Assembly (NCBI GenBank): GCA_945915085.1
Contig: CAMEET010000013.1
Span: 1 to 35,656 of the forward strand
Direction: 5' to 3'
Length of the DNA: 35,656 nucleotides
Origin: an uncultured Treponema sp.
GTDB lineage: Bacteria > Spirochaetota > Spirochaetia > Treponematales > Treponemataceae
Shown here: in pieces, positions 4,689 through 11,207 of the stretch
How positions within the stretch are numbered: position 1 is the first letter of the stretch
Layout: each line of letters starts with the position of its first letter
Program-made: the position numbers and the translations under genes
Notes under the pieces: model-generated
What the model was told of the DNA's origin: nothing
Database searches by the model: none
Seen by the model: the letters and a program-made list of their open reading frames with translations, nothing else

Positions 4689-5915
4689 ATGAAAAGAATA
4701 TTATTTTTTAGCACTATTTTAAGTTCACTTATTTTGGCTAGTTGTTTTAATCCAGTTTACTATGAGATTAGAAAAGACGTAAAACCAGAAGAAGGCACAA
4801 TTTCTGGAAACATTTCGCAAATCACAAGAACTACAGTTGATGAAGAAGAATTTCTTGTTTTATATGCAAACGAAGGAATCAGATATAAACAAAAAGATTT
4901 ATCAGAACATGGAGAATGGAGAATTTTTAACAATCCACCTTGTGCCAAATCTGTAGTTTTTGACAAAATTAGTCAAAAATATGTTGGAGAACAAGTAGTC
5001 TCTATTTTTTCCGATAAAGACACTTTATTTGCAATCACAGCAAAATATAAATACAATACAGAACTTGGAACAACCAATGTTGATTATATGAAAGTTTATG
5101 GAACACAATTACATTTGGATAAAACAGATTCCTCTGGACATACATGGTCTACCAATAATGAATGGACACTTATCATAGATGATACTGAAAAAAAGATATT
5201 CCCTTTTGCTGGTGCTGACTCTTCAAGTGACTATCAATCAAGTGAATTCGCAATTTTCCAAACAAATTCCCCGAAAGCTGAACATAGGAAAGTTTTTATA
5301 AGAAGCGGAAATTCAAATCCAACATATTATGAACTATCTGGAATTCAACAACCAGTTACCACAAATGTTATTATTACTGGAAAAGAAAGTAATATTGCAA
5401 ATTCAGCAGTTTATTTTAATGGAGAAGTTCTATTCTTTGAGTCACTTGCTTCAACTACAAACGAAACTTATAAATCTGAAGCAACACGTTTTTATTTTGG
5501 AAATGATAATAAACTATATGCAAACAAACAAGCAAATTCAAAAGAAATATCAGAATTCTGCGATGCTGAAAACACAATCTCTAGTCTTGCAGTTTGTGCT
5601 GACGCAATATTGATAGGACGAGGAAGGTTTGGTAATGATTCCACAACAACAGGAGGAATCACAAAAACTTCACTTGATGAAAGTGGAACTCCTGGAACTA
5701 GTCTGTTTTCTTTTGATACAAATGCATCATTTCAGTTGTCCACAGCTTATCTGATTAATTGCATTGTAAACAGTTCTCCAGAAAAATCAGAAACAGAAAG
5801 CAGTTTTTATTCATCTGTTTCTATAAAAGGAACAGCTACTTCAACAGGTGCTTCATTTAGAAATCTTGGACTTTGGTCATATTATCCTTCAAGAGGTAAC
5901 TGGAACCGCGAGTAA
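4689..5915 (+). CDS. Lipoprotein of unknown function, coupled to rarA
   Basis: This 408-residue protein begins with a lipoprotein signal whose lipobox is LASC with Cys19. The mature part contains no motif I recognise. It is mostly beta-type sequence with many Ser/Thr/Asn residues, includes FLVLYANEGIRYKQ, and ends in a run describing short strands (LGLWSYYPSRGNW). This may be a beta-propeller or beta-sandwich surface protein. It is preceded by a Shine-Dalgarno AAGGA inside a possible hairpin. Its stop codon overlaps the rarA start by one base (TAATG at 5913-5917), so the two are probably translated in a coupled way. This is odd, since one product is exported and the other cytosolic. Base composition matches the neighbours. 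Confidence 0.8.
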   Translation: MKRILFFSTILSSLILASCFNPVYYEIRKDVKPEEGTISGNISQITRTTVDEEEFLVLYANEGIRYKQKDLSEHGEWRIFNNPPCAKSVVFDKISQKYVGEQVVSIFSDKDTLFAITAKYKYNTELGTTNVDYMKVYGTQLHLDKTDSSGHTWSTNNEWTLIIDDTEKKIFPFAGADSSSDYQSSEFAIFQTNSPKAEHRKVFIRSGNSNPTYYELSGIQQPVTTNVIITGKESNIANSAVYFNGEVLFFESLASTTNETYKSEATRFYFGNDNKLYANKQANSKEISEFCDAENTISSLAVCADAILIGRGRFGNDSTTTGGITKTSLDESGTPGTSLFSFDTNASFQLSTAYLINCIVNSSPEKSETESSFYSSVSIKGTATSTGASFRNLGLWSYYPSRGNWNRE

Positions 5916-8539
5916 TGGCTGACTCTCTTTTTGAACAAAAAAGAACACAAGAACCTCTCGCTGCAAGAATGCGTCCTCGAAATCTTGATGAATACATTGG
6001 TCAAGATCACATCGTGGGAAAAGGACGCTTACTTAGACGTGCAATTGCCGCTGATCAACTTACTTCCGTGATTTTTTACGGGCCACCTGGAAGCGGCAAA
6101 ACCACTCTTGCAAGAGTAATCGCAAATCATACAAAATCAAATTTCATTACGTTGAATGCGGTTTTGACAGGCGTTGCAGATATTCGAACTTCCATAAAGC
6201 AGGCAGAGGATTTTTACAACCTTTACAGCCGCAGAACGATTCTTTTTGTAGATGAAGTTCACCGCTGGAATAAAAGTCAGCAGGATGCACTTTTGCCTTG
6301 GGTTGAAAACGGAACGATTATTCTTATTGGTGCAACAACAGAAAATCCTTTTTTTGAAGTAAATAAAGCACTTGTGAGTCGTTCCCGTGTTTTTCAACTA
6401 AAACCACTTACAAAGGATGATTTGCAGAAGGCTGCTTTTCAGGCAATAAATGATACAGAACGGGGCTATGGTCACTGGCAGGTTGAGTTTGAAGATGGCG
6501 CACTTGAACATTTAATCGAAACAGCAAATGGTGATGCACGTTCGCTTTTGAATGCGCTTGAACTTGCCGTGGAAACTACTCCAGAAAAATGGAATCCCAC
6601 AGGAAATCCGCCAGTTCCAGCTTTTGGAACAAAAATTTATATTTCAAAAGAAACTGCCGAAGAATCAATCCAAAAAAAAGTTGTCCTTTATGACCGCGAT
6701 GGCGACTATCATTATGATATCATCAGTGCTTTTATAAAATCATTGCGTGGAAGAGATCCAGATGCCGCACTTTACTGGCTTGCAAAAATGACTGTTGCTG
6801 GAGAAGATCCGCATTTTATTTTCAGACGAATGTTGATATCAGCTTGTGAAGATACAGGGCTTGCAGACCCTCACGCAATAAGTGTTGTTGAAAGCTGTGC
6901 ACAGGCTTTTGATAGGGTGGGCATGCCGGAAGGACGATATTTTTTGGCACATGCAGCGCTTTATCTATCAACATCACCAAAATCAAACAGTAGCATGGCT
7001 TTTTTTGATGCGATTGCTTGTGTTGAAAAAGAGGATTCCGAAGTTCCAAATCATCTGAGAGATTCCAATCGTGATGCAGAAGGATTTGGACATGGAGCGG
7101 GTTATTTATATCCACATGCATATAAAGACCATTGGATTGCACAACAATATTTGCCAGATGAACTTTCTGGACGAGTTTTTTACAATCCAAGTACACAGGG
7201 ATATGAAAACACAATAAGAAATGATGTACTTTCTCGCCGAGAACTGCAAATAGCCGCAATGCTGGAAAAAAATAATACTGGCGAACTTTATTCCAGCGAT
7301 GAACTTGCAACTTCTCCTGAAACAACAGGTTCCGTAAATGTTTATTCACGTTCATTGACAGCAAAAAGCTGCGCCACAACTCCAAATCAAGAAACAAATT
7401 TGCAAAAATCAGAATTTGGGGACAATCCTATATCTCAATGGTGGATAAACGAGCATTTTAAATCTGGAAATATTAAAAAGGAAGAAAACCTTACTTTCAG
7501 TCCAAAAAATCCAGCAAAAGATGTAATTCTTGATCGGGCAGATAGATTCTGGCAGCAGCGATTAGATTCAAACCGTGCAGAAATCTTGTTAAATATCAGA
7601 GATACAATGATTTCTATGGCAAATTTACTTCGTCATCATCGAAGTCTTATCTGGAATGCCGACAGCGGACTTTTGATTTGGGAAATTGCTAGAAAAACGC
7701 CCGAAGGTGTAACTTGCGGAGTTTGTAAAACACAAAAAGGTAAACAGATTTTGGAACAGTACGGCAGAACGCTTGGCAAACTGGACCGTCCGATTTTGCA
7801 AACTCGCGATGAGAACAATGCTTTCCAAACAGATTTTTTAACACCAAAAGCATTTTACAACATCATCATAAAAATGCAGTATAGCGGTGCTGTTTTTGAC
7901 AGAATGTTTTTTACAGATCCTTTTGTTTCACAAAAATCCATTACAGCACTTGCTCAATCAATTCATGGAATTTTGAATAGTCAGGATTTCCAAAAAAACA
8001 AAGAATCTGAAGACGAAAATCAAAATTTTTACGAAAAAGACAATTTTGATGAAAACGAAACAGAAGAAACTTACGAAACTGAAAGTCCACTCGCAGACGG
8101 ATGGAAAGTAATAATTTCACAAAAAATCCCGTGCAAAGGTCAGTTGATTAGTGAGATTATAGAAAAACAGATTTTGTCACAGGAAAGCACAGAACCGTTC
8201 GCTCAAGTTTTACAGAAAATGAAAAATGCCGAACAGATTTTTTTTGGTGATAAAGAAAATCCTCTTTTTTCGTGGGATGAACAGACAATTGCACAAGAAT
8301 TCGAGAAAAACGGTTTTCATGTAAAAGTTGCATCAAAACAAATCACAGAAAAACGGCGGATTACTCCAGCAGAAATTGAAAAATGGTTTGAACCAAAAAA
8401 ATCAGCTTACGGATCAAAAATGTTCGAAGCTTTGGGAAGTACAGAACTTCAAAAATTAATCAATCTTCTACTGGCAGCCTGTGAGAAAACACTTTTTGAG
8501 TGGAAAAGTGAAATCGCTTTTTTTATGATAGAACAATAA
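5915..8539 (+). CDS. rarA: RarA (MgsA) AAA+ ATPase fused to a C-terminal methyltransferase-like domain
   Basis: The 874-residue protein is about twice the length of ordinary RarA. Residues 1 to about 455 are a full RarA, the clamp-loader-like ATPase that acts at stalled forks. Visible are Walker A GPPGSGKT (56-63), Walker B ILFVDEVH (109-116), sensor-1 ATTEN (140-144), a SRSRVF arginine-finger region, and the tetramerisation tail ending near [12 protein letters not shown]. From about 475 onward a second region follows: [18 protein letters not shown], then [19 protein letters not shown] near 577, which resembles a degenerate SAM-binding motif I. An acidic linker lies at about 690-725 and a conserved-looking C-terminus follows. 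RarA fusions with an uncharacterised domain are known in cyanobacteria and some other groups, and I think this is that type. The start overlaps the upstream stop by one base. The 3' end faces ilvB with only 7 bp between stops. Confidence 0.92.
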
Positions 8540-8546
8540 TCAAAAA

Positions 8547-10280
8547 TTAATCACGGATAGAATCAATATTTGCCTTTCCACCAGGAACAAACGGCAAAAC
8601 AGATTCTTCAGGATTTACACTGATGCGAACAAAACAAGGTTTATTTTCTCTAGCTGCATCAAATGCTTTGAGATACCAGTTTTCATCGCTATCAGCATCA
8701 ATAGCTTCGATTCCAAAACCTTTTGCAATCTGGAGCAAATCTGGAGATTTTCCAAAAACTGAAGCACTGTAATTTTTATCAAAAAGGAATTTTTGCTGCT
8801 GATAAACCATTCCCAAAGTTCCGTTTTCAAAAACAATTACTGTCACAGGAAGATTCAATTCAGCTAGAGTAGCGAATTCCTGAACATTCATCATAATGGA
8901 ACCGTCACCACTGAAACAAACAATTCTACTTTCTGGATTTGCCAGCGAAGCGCCGATAGCCGCAGGAAGGCCAAATCCCATAGTTCCAAGTGAACCAGAA
9001 GTCAAAAAAGAACGAGGTCTTTCAACAGGATAAAACTGTGCTGCCCACATCTGATGCTGACCAACATCTGTTGTGATAATAAGATTTTCGGCAGGAATAC
9101 CAGCTTTTTCTGCAAGCTTTGGAATATTTTGAATAATTTCGCGTGGATTTGCAAGTTTTTCACCTTTCGGACGACCACATTCCAGCGAAATATTTTTGTT
9201 TTTCAATTCGATAATAGACTTGAGCCAGTTTTGGTCTGCAGAATTTTTCTTTTCTGATACAAGTTCAGCTAAAACCGGGAAAACAGATTCAACATCAGCA
9301 ACTATCGAAATATTTGAATTCATAATTTTATCAACTTCGGCAGCATCAATATCAATATGAATGATTTTTGCATTTGGACAGAATTTTGAAACAACGCCAG
9401 TTGCTCTGTCATCAAAACGAACACCAGCCGCAATCACTAAATCGCTGTCGTGAATTGCAACATTTGCAGCATGATTTCCGTGCATACCAAGCATTCCAAT
9501 AAAATTTTCACAAGAATTTGGAACTGCTCCCAATCCCATCAAACTAAAAACTGCAGGAATTGAATAATTTTCTAAGAATTTTTTTATTTCTTTTGATGCT
9601 TTTGGAGAGTTGCAGCCGCCGCCACAATACAAAACTGGTTTTTGCGAATTCTTCAAAAGTTCAACGATTTCAAGACATTTTTTTGCAAGTTCTTCTTTTG
9701 TAGAATGATATTTTACAGAAACTTTGCATTGCTTTTCATTTTCAATCATTTTTGCAAAAAAATCATCAGGGATTTCACAACAGGCAAGTTGAACATCACG
9801 TGGAACATCAATCAAAACAGGTCCCGGTCTTCCTTGAGTAGCAATGCGGAAAGCATCTGGAATTGCAGTCAGAAGTTCTTCTGGAGATTTTACCATAACA
9901 GAATGTTTTGTGATTGGAAACGAAAGTCCAAAAGTGTCAGCCTCCTGAAAAGCATCAGTTCCAATCAAAGAAGTGTTAACCTGCCCTGTAATCGCAATGA
10001 TTGGAACTGAGTCTGCACGGGCATCAGCAATAGCTGTCAAAAGATTCATAGCACCAGGTCCGGATGTTGCCATACAAACTGCAATATTTCCAGTAGAACG
10101 CGTAATTCCCTGCGCTATAAAACCTGCTGCCTGTTCCTGACGCACAAGGACGTGTTTAATTGTAGATTTATTCAGTTCATCATAAAGCGGCAAAATTGAA
10201 CCACCAGGAATGCCGGCAACCATCTCAATACCGAACGCTTTCAAAGCTTCTACAATAATTTGTGCACCAGAAATTTTCAT
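8547..10280 (-). CDS. ilvB: Acetolactate synthase large (catalytic) subunit
   Basis: IlvB joins two pyruvates, or pyruvate and 2-oxobutyrate, in the first common step of valine, leucine and isoleucine synthesis, using ThDP, Mg and FAD. The 577-residue chain has the family order. These are VAGIPGGSILPLYDEL, then RQEQAAGFIAQG with the catalytic Glu49, ATSGPGAMNLLT, GRPGPVLIDVPRD, a middle FAD domain with LGMLGMHG, and the ThDP motif SGDGSIMMNVQEFATL closing with ENGTLGMVYQQQ. A TTG two codons upstream is possible, but the ATG at 10280 has GAGG seven bases before it, so I start there. Upstream lies a complete attenuator (10308-10447). No small regulatory subunit (ilvN) follows; the next gene is convergent. 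The gene is therefore monocistronic, and feedback control must use a subunit encoded elsewhere or be absent. Confidence 0.96.
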   Translation of the reverse strand: MKISGAQIIVEALKAFGIEMVAGIPGGSILPLYDELNKSTIKHVLVRQEQAAGFIAQGITRSTGNIAVCMATSGPGAMNLLTAIADARADSVPIIAITGQVNTSLIGTDAFQEADTFGLSFPITKHSVMVKSPEELLTAIPDAFRIATQGRPGPVLIDVPRDVQLACCEIPDDFFAKMIENEKQCKVSVKYHSTKEELAKKCLEIVELLKNSQKPVLYCGGGCNSPKASKEIKKFLENYSIPAVFSLMGLGAVPNSCENFIGMLGMHGNHAANVAIHDSDLVIAAGVRFDDRATGVVSKFCPNAKIIHIDIDAAEVDKIMNSNISIVADVESVFPVLAELVSEKKNSADQNWLKSIIELKNKNISLECGRPKGEKLANPREIIQNIPKLAEKAGIPAENLIITTDVGQHQMWAAQFYPVERPRSFLTSGSLGTMGFGLPAAIGASLANPESRIVCFSGDGSIMMNVQEFATLAELNLPVTVIVFENGTLGMVYQQQKFLFDKNYSASVFGKSPDLLQIAKGFGIEAIDADSDENWYLKAFDAARENKPCFVRISVNPEESVLPFVPGGKANIDSIRD

Positions 10281-10307
10281 ATTCAAACCTCATAAAAAAA
10301 AATTTGC

Positions 10308-10339
10308 AAAAAAAAAGCCCTCCGATTTCCCGGAGAGCC
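10308..10339 (-). terminator. Rho-independent attenuator terminator of ilvB
   Basis: On the minus strand an 8-bp stem pairs GCTCTCCG (10331-10338) with CGGAGGGC (10317-10324), including one G-U pair. The loop has six bases and nine T residues follow directly (10308-10316). It lies between the leader peptide and the ilvB ribosome binding site, so it must be bypassed for ilvB to be transcribed. Its 5' arm can instead pair with an upstream segment. Confidence 0.9.
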
Positions 10340-10402
10340 TAAATCTATATCATGCTTTAATCATAAGATATAACATTCACTCTTCGGGTATCAATCTACC
10401 GA
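10329..10402 (-). promoter_or_regulatory. Antiterminator and leader hairpin of the ilvB attenuator
   Basis: Segment 2, CCCGAAGAG (10380-10388), pairs with CTCTCCGGG (10329-10337) at eight of nine positions, which uses up the 5' arm of the terminator. The same segment 2 can instead close a leader hairpin: TCGGTA (10397-10402) with TACCCGA (10384-10390), one bulged C, and a six-base loop GATTGA holding the leader-peptide stop codon. These are the mutually exclusive 1:2, 2:3 and 3:4 pairings of classical amino-acid attenuation. A ribosome stalled on Val/Leu codons would leave segment 2 free to form the antiterminator. Confidence 0.8.
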
Positions 10403-10447
10403 TAGGACGAGAACAGTTACAACTTTGACTAAAGACAAAAAATGCAT
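10391..10447 (-). CDS. ilvB leader peptide (Val/Leu-rich, 18 residues)
   Basis: The translated frame is MHFLSLVKVVTVLVLSVD, then TGA. Six of 18 residues are Val and four are Leu, clustered just before the RNA segment that controls termination. This is what is seen in branched-chain amino-acid leader peptides (ilvL, ivbL, leuL in enterobacteria). The last codons overlap the 5' arm of the 1:2 hairpin and the stop codon lies in its loop. A ribosome that finishes translation would therefore mask segment 2 and favour termination, while one starved of Val-tRNA or Leu-tRNA would stall upstream. The ATG lies only 7 nt after the -10 box, so the mRNA should begin at or within about two bases of it. No Shine-Dalgarno site is possible. 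The peptide itself is unlikely to have another function. Confidence 0.85.
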   Translation of the reverse strand: MHFLSLVKVVTVLVLSVD

Positions 10448-10454
10448 ATAACAA

Positions 10455-10483
10455 ATTATGAAGATTTTTGATAATTTTGTCAA
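10455..10483 (-). promoter_or_regulatory. Strong sigma-70-type promoter of the ilvB leader
   Basis: On the minus strand a perfect TTGACA (10478-10483), a 17-bp spacer and CATAAT (10455-10460) form the best promoter in the window. Transcription should start close to 10447-10449, at the leader peptide ATG. A near-consensus promoter suits a gene regulated mainly after initiation. Confidence 0.9.
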
Positions 10484-10517: not shown

Positions 10518-11207
10518 TTACTCTCCATAAGCATCATAAGATTTTTTGGAATCATAAACGCCAGAACGATATTCACCTGTAATACTAGGAATTTTCATTT
10601 TCATTCCAGGCAAAATAAGGTTTGGATCTTCTGGCTTTGGCATTTCATTTTTATTTGCCTGATACAAATTTTCCCACAACAAAGGATTATTATAGATGTA
10701 AGGACGACCAGAAATATTCCAATAACAGTCTTTTGTTTCAGCCCATGGCTTTACAATATAATACTCTGGAAGCGGAGTAACTTCACGAATTCCATCCAAC
10801 GAGGCAATACAAGCTTTTGCATAATCTGTCGCCTGCGGATAATCTTCAGATTCAAAAGAACTTTCCGCATTTGTAAGATTTTCTATTGCAGCTGAATAAG
10901 CCATTGGAAATGTGTTTGGTGCATTGATTTTTTCGGCATAAGCAACTTGATTTTTTGCCAGCTTGATATTATCTTCTGCAGTTTTTCTTTCCATCATAAG
11001 TGCAATATATGCTTTTGAAAGAGCGGCATTTTCTTCAGCTTTTTTTGAATATTCAACAGCATCATCATATTGTCCTGCATCCAAAGCTATTTCTGCTTTT
11101 TTTGTATATTCATCGGCAAGTTTTTGATAAGTATTATTTTTATAACTGATTGCAAAAAGAGAAAGTGAAAACAATGTTACAAATAAAATTGATAAACTTT
11201 TTTTCAT
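10518..11207 (-). CDS. Exported LysM-domain protein with helical repeats
   Basis: The 229-residue product starts with a signal peptide (MKKSLSILFVTLFSLSLFA, cleavage near residue 19). Residues about 25-140 are Ala-rich helices in tandem (LADEYTKKAEIALDAGQYDDAVEYSKKA written in two TPR-like turns, and YPQATDYAKACIAS), probably TPR-like or coiled coil. From about 148 the chain switches to a LysM-type module: YYIVKPWAETKDCYWNIS, LLWENLYQANK, and LILPGMKMKIPS. LysM modules bind peptidoglycan, so the protein probably sits in the periplasm on the cell wall. It begins 2 bp after the stop of the acidic-tailed lipoprotein, so the two form an operon, and both combine a signal with helical repeats. Their exact role is unknown. 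Confidence 0.85.
   Translation of the reverse strand: MKKSLSILFVTLFSLSLFAISYKNNTYQKLADEYTKKAEIALDAGQYDDAVEYSKKAEENAALSKAYIALMMERKTAEDNIKLAKNQVAYAEKINAPNTFPMAYSAAIENLTNAESSFESEDYPQATDYAKACIASLDGIREVTPLPEYYIVKPWAETKDCYWNISGRPYIYNNPLLWENLYQANKNEMPKPEDPNLILPGMKMKIPSITGEYRSGVYDSKKSYDAYGE

Follow-up and report, generated by a model that had tools for sequence, protein, structure and literature searches.

Transcription attenuation relies on the timely arrival of the first ribosome behind RNA polymerase. The locus considered here, the leader region of ilvB in a stretch of 35,656 nucleotides from an uncultured Treponema sp. (the whole of this stretch is referred to as the window), raises the question of how that first ribosome would be loaded. 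The initial annotation had proposed that the regulatory leader peptide is itself leaderless, with only seven bases between its -10 box and its ATG. It appears quite probable that the leader before ilvB is a classical valine/leucine (branched-chain amino acid, BCAA) transcription attenuator with a leaderless-initiated leader peptide. The geometry of promoter and ATG together with its conservation, the absent Shine-Dalgarno (SD) sequence, the biased reading frame, and the covarying pairings were computed here, and the transcription start, the initiation route, and the response to amino acids are the parts of this reading that we infer.

The ilvB gene, which encodes the large subunit of acetohydroxyacid synthase (577 aa, with three TPP-enzyme Pfam domains), occupies positions 8547-10280 of the minus strand. 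A gene for an MgsA/RarA-type AAA+ ATPase (874 aa; 5915-8539, plus strand) is convergent with it, and the product of this gene continues for ~430 C-terminal residues past the last Pfam domain. The leader promoter, also on the minus strand, is comprised of a -35 hexamer, TTGACA (10478-10483), which is a perfect match and is found as such or as a one-base variant in most relatives, and a -10 hexamer, CATAAT (10455-10460), at a spacing of 17 nt, so that 11 of the 12 consensus bases are present. The gap behind the -10 hexamer reads TTGTTAT (10454-10448), and the leader ATG lies at 10447-10445; the positions and the seven-base spacing of the initial annotation were thus confirmed on reading the minus strand. 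If transcription begins 6-8 nt after the -10 hexamer, the 7-nt gap implies a 5′ untranslated region (UTR) of about 0-2 nt, which would place the predicted transcription start at 10447-10449, on the first base of the leader ATG or up to 2 nt before it. A single copy of the pattern TTGACA-N16-18-NATAAT-N5-9-ATG is present in the window versus 0.04 expected from shuffles, and 4 of 100 shuffles of the window contained one; conservation is a stronger argument against chance than this count.

Relatives were collected by IlvB searches, which gave 30 loci on named contigs and a match in every one of 98 genomes from the genus, and upstream regions of ilvB were taken from 108 loci. The leader-bearing loci yielded 36 leaders, which were reduced to 25 representatives below 85% identity, and a covariance model was built from 19 close leaders. 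The promoter spacing was scanned in 62 deduplicated leader rows by scoring promoters over the 60 upstream bases, keeping the best one, and leaving the distance between the -10 hexamer and the ATG free (0 to ~32 nt). Four rows were excluded, namely L148 and L023 (short upstream sequence), L017 (no in-frame ATG), and L164 (probably a spurious model match), which left 58 ATG leaders with a scorable promoter. The gap measured 5-10 nt in 55 of these 58 rows, which are kin and not 58 independent events, with a mode of 7 nt (5 nt in 3 leaders, 6 nt in 13, 7 nt in 31, 8 nt in 4, 9 nt in 2, and 10 nt in 2). The other three (L135, L163, and L063) had a gap of 14-16 nt in the automated scan; by eye, each carries TTTAAT 6-7 nt before the ATG, a hexamer that was missed because the scan rule required an A at position 2. 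The bases of the spacer vary and its length is kept (composition from 31 leaders), as is evident from the three closest sequences, which read TTGTTAT (L031, the window), ATTTTTT (L001), and TTACTTC (L011).

With regard to ribosome binding, hybridisation of the bases from -20 onward to the anti-SD sequence reached a dG of ≤ -4.4 kcal/mol in only 2 of the 36 leaders, whereas the ilvB starts of the same loci reached it in 36 of 36 (Wilcoxon p 1.6e-7). In the window, the ilvB SD sequence GAGG (10288-10291, minus strand) is located 8-11 bases before the ilvB ATG and provides an internal contrast to the leader. As in leaderless mRNAs, no SD sequence precedes the leader, and its start codon is AUG in 60 of the 62 rows, the exceptions being L164 and L017, whose lack of an in-frame ATG counts against the proposed reading.

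It is rather improbable that the leader is translated from longer RNAs, made by read-through from the gene that ends at 10518 or from an unseen promoter, in which case initiation would be SD-independent and not leaderless. The stop codon of that upstream gene lies 34 nt from the -35 hexamer, and no terminator was found in this 34-nt interval; because of this arrangement, read-through may also yield RNA with an extended 5′ end. However, the -35 and -10 hexamers are kept at a near-constant distance from the ATG where the upstream sequences of relatives differ, and, since most leaders (all except the 2 of 36 mentioned above) have no SD sequence upstream, a longer RNA would not supply one either.

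The leader ORF itself has 18 codons (MHFLSLVKVVTVLVLSVD; 10391-10447, minus strand) and ends with a TGA stop codon at 10393-10391. Among the 25 representatives, valine, leucine, and isoleucine make up 52% of the residues in the leader frame versus 19% and 12% in the two alternative frames, and the leader frame contains 4 stops versus 59 and 19. Codon choice in the leaders is biased as well: GTC accounts for 46% of the Val codons versus 7% in ilvB, and of the Leu codons, CTC accounts for 31% versus 10% and CTA for 12% versus 1% (same representatives). Such a preference for codons seldom used in ilvB fits a sensor of charged tRNA, and a short ORF enriched in codons for the operon's end products is what an attenuator is expected to carry.

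The minimum-energy folds of the leaders mostly consist of one long hairpin, formed by the leader ORF and the segment past its stop codon, followed by a terminator. In the window, the long hairpin spans 10353-10437 of the minus strand and is predicted to be the OFF state (anti-antiterminator), a reading based on folds, partner permutation, and pair counts; leader nucleotides from 11 on pair with nucleotides 58-95, and the leader stop codon lies in an inner loop. The candidate antiterminator has a 5′ arm, CCCGAAGAG (10380-10388, minus strand), which begins 2 nt past the stop codon, and a 3′ arm, CTCTCCGGG (10337-10329), which is at the same time the 5′ arm of the terminator; the two arms form 8 of 9 pairs with one A.C mismatch. 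Both arms were read from the sequence and are consistent with the permutation, and the 5′ arm also with the folding model described below. The intrinsic terminator (10308-10340, minus strand), which has an 11-pair stem (10340-10315) and a U tract running to 10308, is supported by the terminator call, the RNAalifold consensus, and pair counts. An intrinsic terminator before the structural gene and an antiterminator that shares the 5′ arm of this terminator, as are characteristic of attenuators, were thus both found.

RNAalifold with default settings recovered the terminator alone, and not the long hairpin, from the alignment A2; the long hairpin was derived from single-sequence folds and afterwards tested by permutation. 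Leaders paired with their cognate downstream partners at a mean of -19.4 kcal/mol versus -12.8 kcal/mol for non-cognate partners, a result that no permutation out of 20,000 matched; when the antiterminator region was tested with the terminator arm, 3 of 20,000 permutations did so. In the named structure, 16 cells were changed on both sides among 18 distinct close relatives versus 5.7 after shuffling (0 of 500 shuffles as high), and the number of further pair types in the same relatives was unexceptional (77 of 500 shuffles). No clear support was obtained for a special unpaired state of the first ten leader bases: they were free in 16 of 24 leaders versus 9.5 expected, but the paired test on unpaired probability gave p 0.069.

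No Rfam family matched the window at the gathering threshold. T-box elements, riboswitches, and known leader families were not considered further, as a permissive Rfam search gave sub-threshold and mutually inconsistent families, of which the best in the leader was Phe_leader with 23.7 of the 55 bits needed. These results bear on the view that a ligand or protein binds the region as a structured switch, with the reading frame incidental, which we consider very unlikely. The strong covarying structure is in keeping with it, and according to PMC8632094, the ilvB motifs known from other bacteria were initially classed as riboswitch candidates. On the other hand, the enrichment in valine, leucine, and isoleucine is confined to one frame, stops are few in that frame and many in the other two, the leader is biased to codons rare in ilvB, and all Rfam scores in the leader are below threshold.

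The dependence of the structure on translation was modelled for the RNA up to the freshly made 5′ arm of the terminator, with a ribosome that masks bases up to 11 past the A-site codon. For the leader of the window, the probability of the antiterminator was 0.39 without a ribosome, 0.79 with a ribosome stalled on most leader codons, and 0.02 with a ribosome at the stop codon; the first of these is an intermediate value and counts against the attenuator reading. The corresponding medians over the 25 representatives were 0.19, 0.63 (best stall position), and 0.09. The value was below 0.25 in 16 of 25 representatives without a ribosome and in 16 of 25 with the ribosome at the stop codon, the other 9 in each condition being not below it, which also counts against this reading. 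A stall position with an antiterminator probability above 0.5 was found in 25 of 25. Such dependence on ribosome position would be expected of a classical attenuator that terminates once the ribosome is released at the stop codon and, in most relatives, also when none initiates; here it is predicted by a folding model with a chosen footprint and no shuffled control. Together with the coding bias and the evidence for pairing between leader and downstream segment, this modelled dependence makes it most improbable of all that the promoter serves ilvB with the short ORF untranslated and the terminator merely dampening expression constitutively.

For the valine/leucine attenuator, the following mechanism can be proposed. 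RNA polymerase would begin within about 2 bases of the leader ATG, and a ribosome, most likely a 70S ribosome judging from established work on leaderless mRNAs, would initiate on the 5′-terminal AUG without an SD sequence. When charged Val-tRNA or Leu-tRNA is scarce, the ribosome would stall on the run rich in GTC, CTC, and CTA and mask the leader side of the long hairpin. The segment past the stop codon could then pair with the 5′ terminator arm, and ilvB would be transcribed. With ample supply, the ribosome would reach the stop codon and cover the antiterminator arm, and the terminator would form. If no ribosome starts, the leader and its downstream partner would pair, with the terminator favoured in most relatives. 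Leaderless initiation at 10447 is a prediction; the conserved spacing, the contrast between a leader with no SD sequence and an SD sequence at ilvB, and the coding and structural evidence support the proposal of the initial annotation that the regulatory leader ORF is leaderless.

Since the unoccupied leader favours the terminator in most relatives, leaderless initiation may itself be a condition for ilvB expression. It is conceivable, although we regard it as doubtful, that the switch reads both BCAA supply and the capacity for leaderless (70S) initiation, as a genus-wide design in Treponema; this suggestion stems from the OFF fold of the empty leader in most relatives and from ribosome entry solely by leaderless initiation. 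If it holds, a shift of ribosomes toward leaderless mRNAs would raise ilvB expression without amino-acid starvation.

The genome to which the window belongs has one match to the covariance model, upstream of ilvB, and the same leader is carried by cultured relatives, T. bryantii (two strains) and T. berlinense. Within the genus, 54 of 196 genomes matched the leader model at E < 1e-5 among the matches listed, and 112 of 196 at E ≤ 0.01, many of the weak matches probably being due to chance. The order-wide search covered 146 genomes and gave matches in 12 at E ≤ 1e-4; of these, 10 belong to the genus, and the two outside it (G276 and G284) are weak. Many of the 108 ilvB loci have no leader peptide, and ilvB there has its own SD sequence or an ATG apparently right behind a promoter. 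In another part of the genus, loci without a leader peptide (L079, L081, L083, L086, L089, L092, L110, and L114) have the ilvB ATG ~6-8 nt behind a TTGACA/-10-like promoter by eye, and their ilvB mRNA may be leaderless. At other loci (L099, L100, L102, L105, L107, L108, L109, and L113), the ilvB homologue is immediately preceded by a 5S rRNA gene in the same direction (RF00001 match in 8 of 8 loci tested), and the 5S promoter may drive ilvB. No comparable attenuator was seen by eye in the regions upstream of hisG or of leuA-family genes of relatives, a reading that left out L189, L200, and L203.

Leaderless genes are also indicated elsewhere in Treponema and in other spirochaetes. With a strict promoter pattern, 13 genomes of the genus, including that of the window, have 162 ATG codons at 5-9 bases past the -10 hexamer, whereas the two controls, the reversed codon GTA and an ATG at 14-18 bases, each gave 75. 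Another 8 genomes from the order had 148 such ATG codons, 44 GTA codons, and 61 ATG codons at 14-18 bases. The genome of the window taken by itself shows no leaderless excess with this pattern (ATG 8, GTA 6, and ATG at 14-18 nt 6). One of its leuA-family genes (L198; G000:C28) reads TTGACA-17-GATAAT-6-ATG and is predicted to be leaderless. By eye, the hisG ATG lies ~6-8 nt after a -10-like hexamer at L177, L180, L184, and L185, which are possibly leaderless, and an order-level relative (G101) has 80 strict promoter-ATG arrangements at 5-9 nt versus 21 for the control codon, which suggests many leaderless genes. Of 18 spirochaete genomes in a sequence-based survey, 6 are listed as having leaderless genes (PMC3160421). 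In Leptospira interrogans, ~440 mRNAs with a 5′ UTR of < 10 nt were detected by dRNA-seq (PMC5243855); these are leaderless transcripts of a spirochaete, as predicted for the window, but they come from ordinary genes, and the account given of them describes no attenuator.

In the open-licence literature on attenuators, leader peptides, and leaderless RNAs of Treponema and spirochaetes, no report of the present element was found. The element has its own conserved RNA fold, which matches no Rfam family. An attenuator free of an SD sequence beside ilvB with a strong one would offer a natural comparison of two initiation routes on one transcript.

Several known systems resemble it by description. 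The Leptospira ilvB (WRC-14-1) motif likewise occurs in a spirochaete upstream of ilvB and has a probable BCAA-rich uORF (PMC8632094, PMC10272879); as described, its seven representatives are all from Leptospira and lie ~70 nt upstream of the main ORF. BCAA uORFs have been proposed for both the ilvB-OMG and the Leptospira ilvB motifs (PMC10272879). In Actinobacteria, candidate ilvB leader peptides were catalogued as early as 2005 (PMC1262725), and ilvB1 of M. tuberculosis is reported to have a 166-base leader whose uORF brings about attenuation (PMC13236596).

Leaderless attenuators are already known from C. glutamicum ilvBNC, S. meliloti trpL, and the mycobacterial polycysteine ORFs. In C. 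glutamicum ilvBNC, for which Morbach et al. 2000 is cited, transcription is reported to start one nucleotide from the leader ATG, with no ribosome binding site (PMC11857589). Its IlvL/ilvB-II leader, similar to that of the window, is located upstream of ilvB, is rich in BCAA codons (15 codons in total), and has a terminator, an antiterminator, and a leader hairpin (PMC11857589, PMC10272879). However, it belongs to another phylum, and its leader peptide, MTIIRLVVVTARRLP, has no evident resemblance to that of the window; the ilvB-II motif is likened to the Treponema leader by description, and the leader of the window reaches no Rfam family. The trpL RNA of Sinorhizobium meliloti (rnTrpL/peTrpL) has a 5′ end that coincides with the ATG of the leader ORF, as predicted for the RNA of the window, but it responds to tryptophan and not to BCAA, belongs to an alphaproteobacterium, and has additional functions in trans (PMC7298713). 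The mycobacterial polycysteine short ORFs are also leaderless and act as attenuators (cited in PMC9031893), and differ in that they concern cysteine, other operons, and another phylum. The predicted Treponema element would thus extend leaderless attenuators, known from Actinobacteria and alphaproteobacteria, to Treponema.
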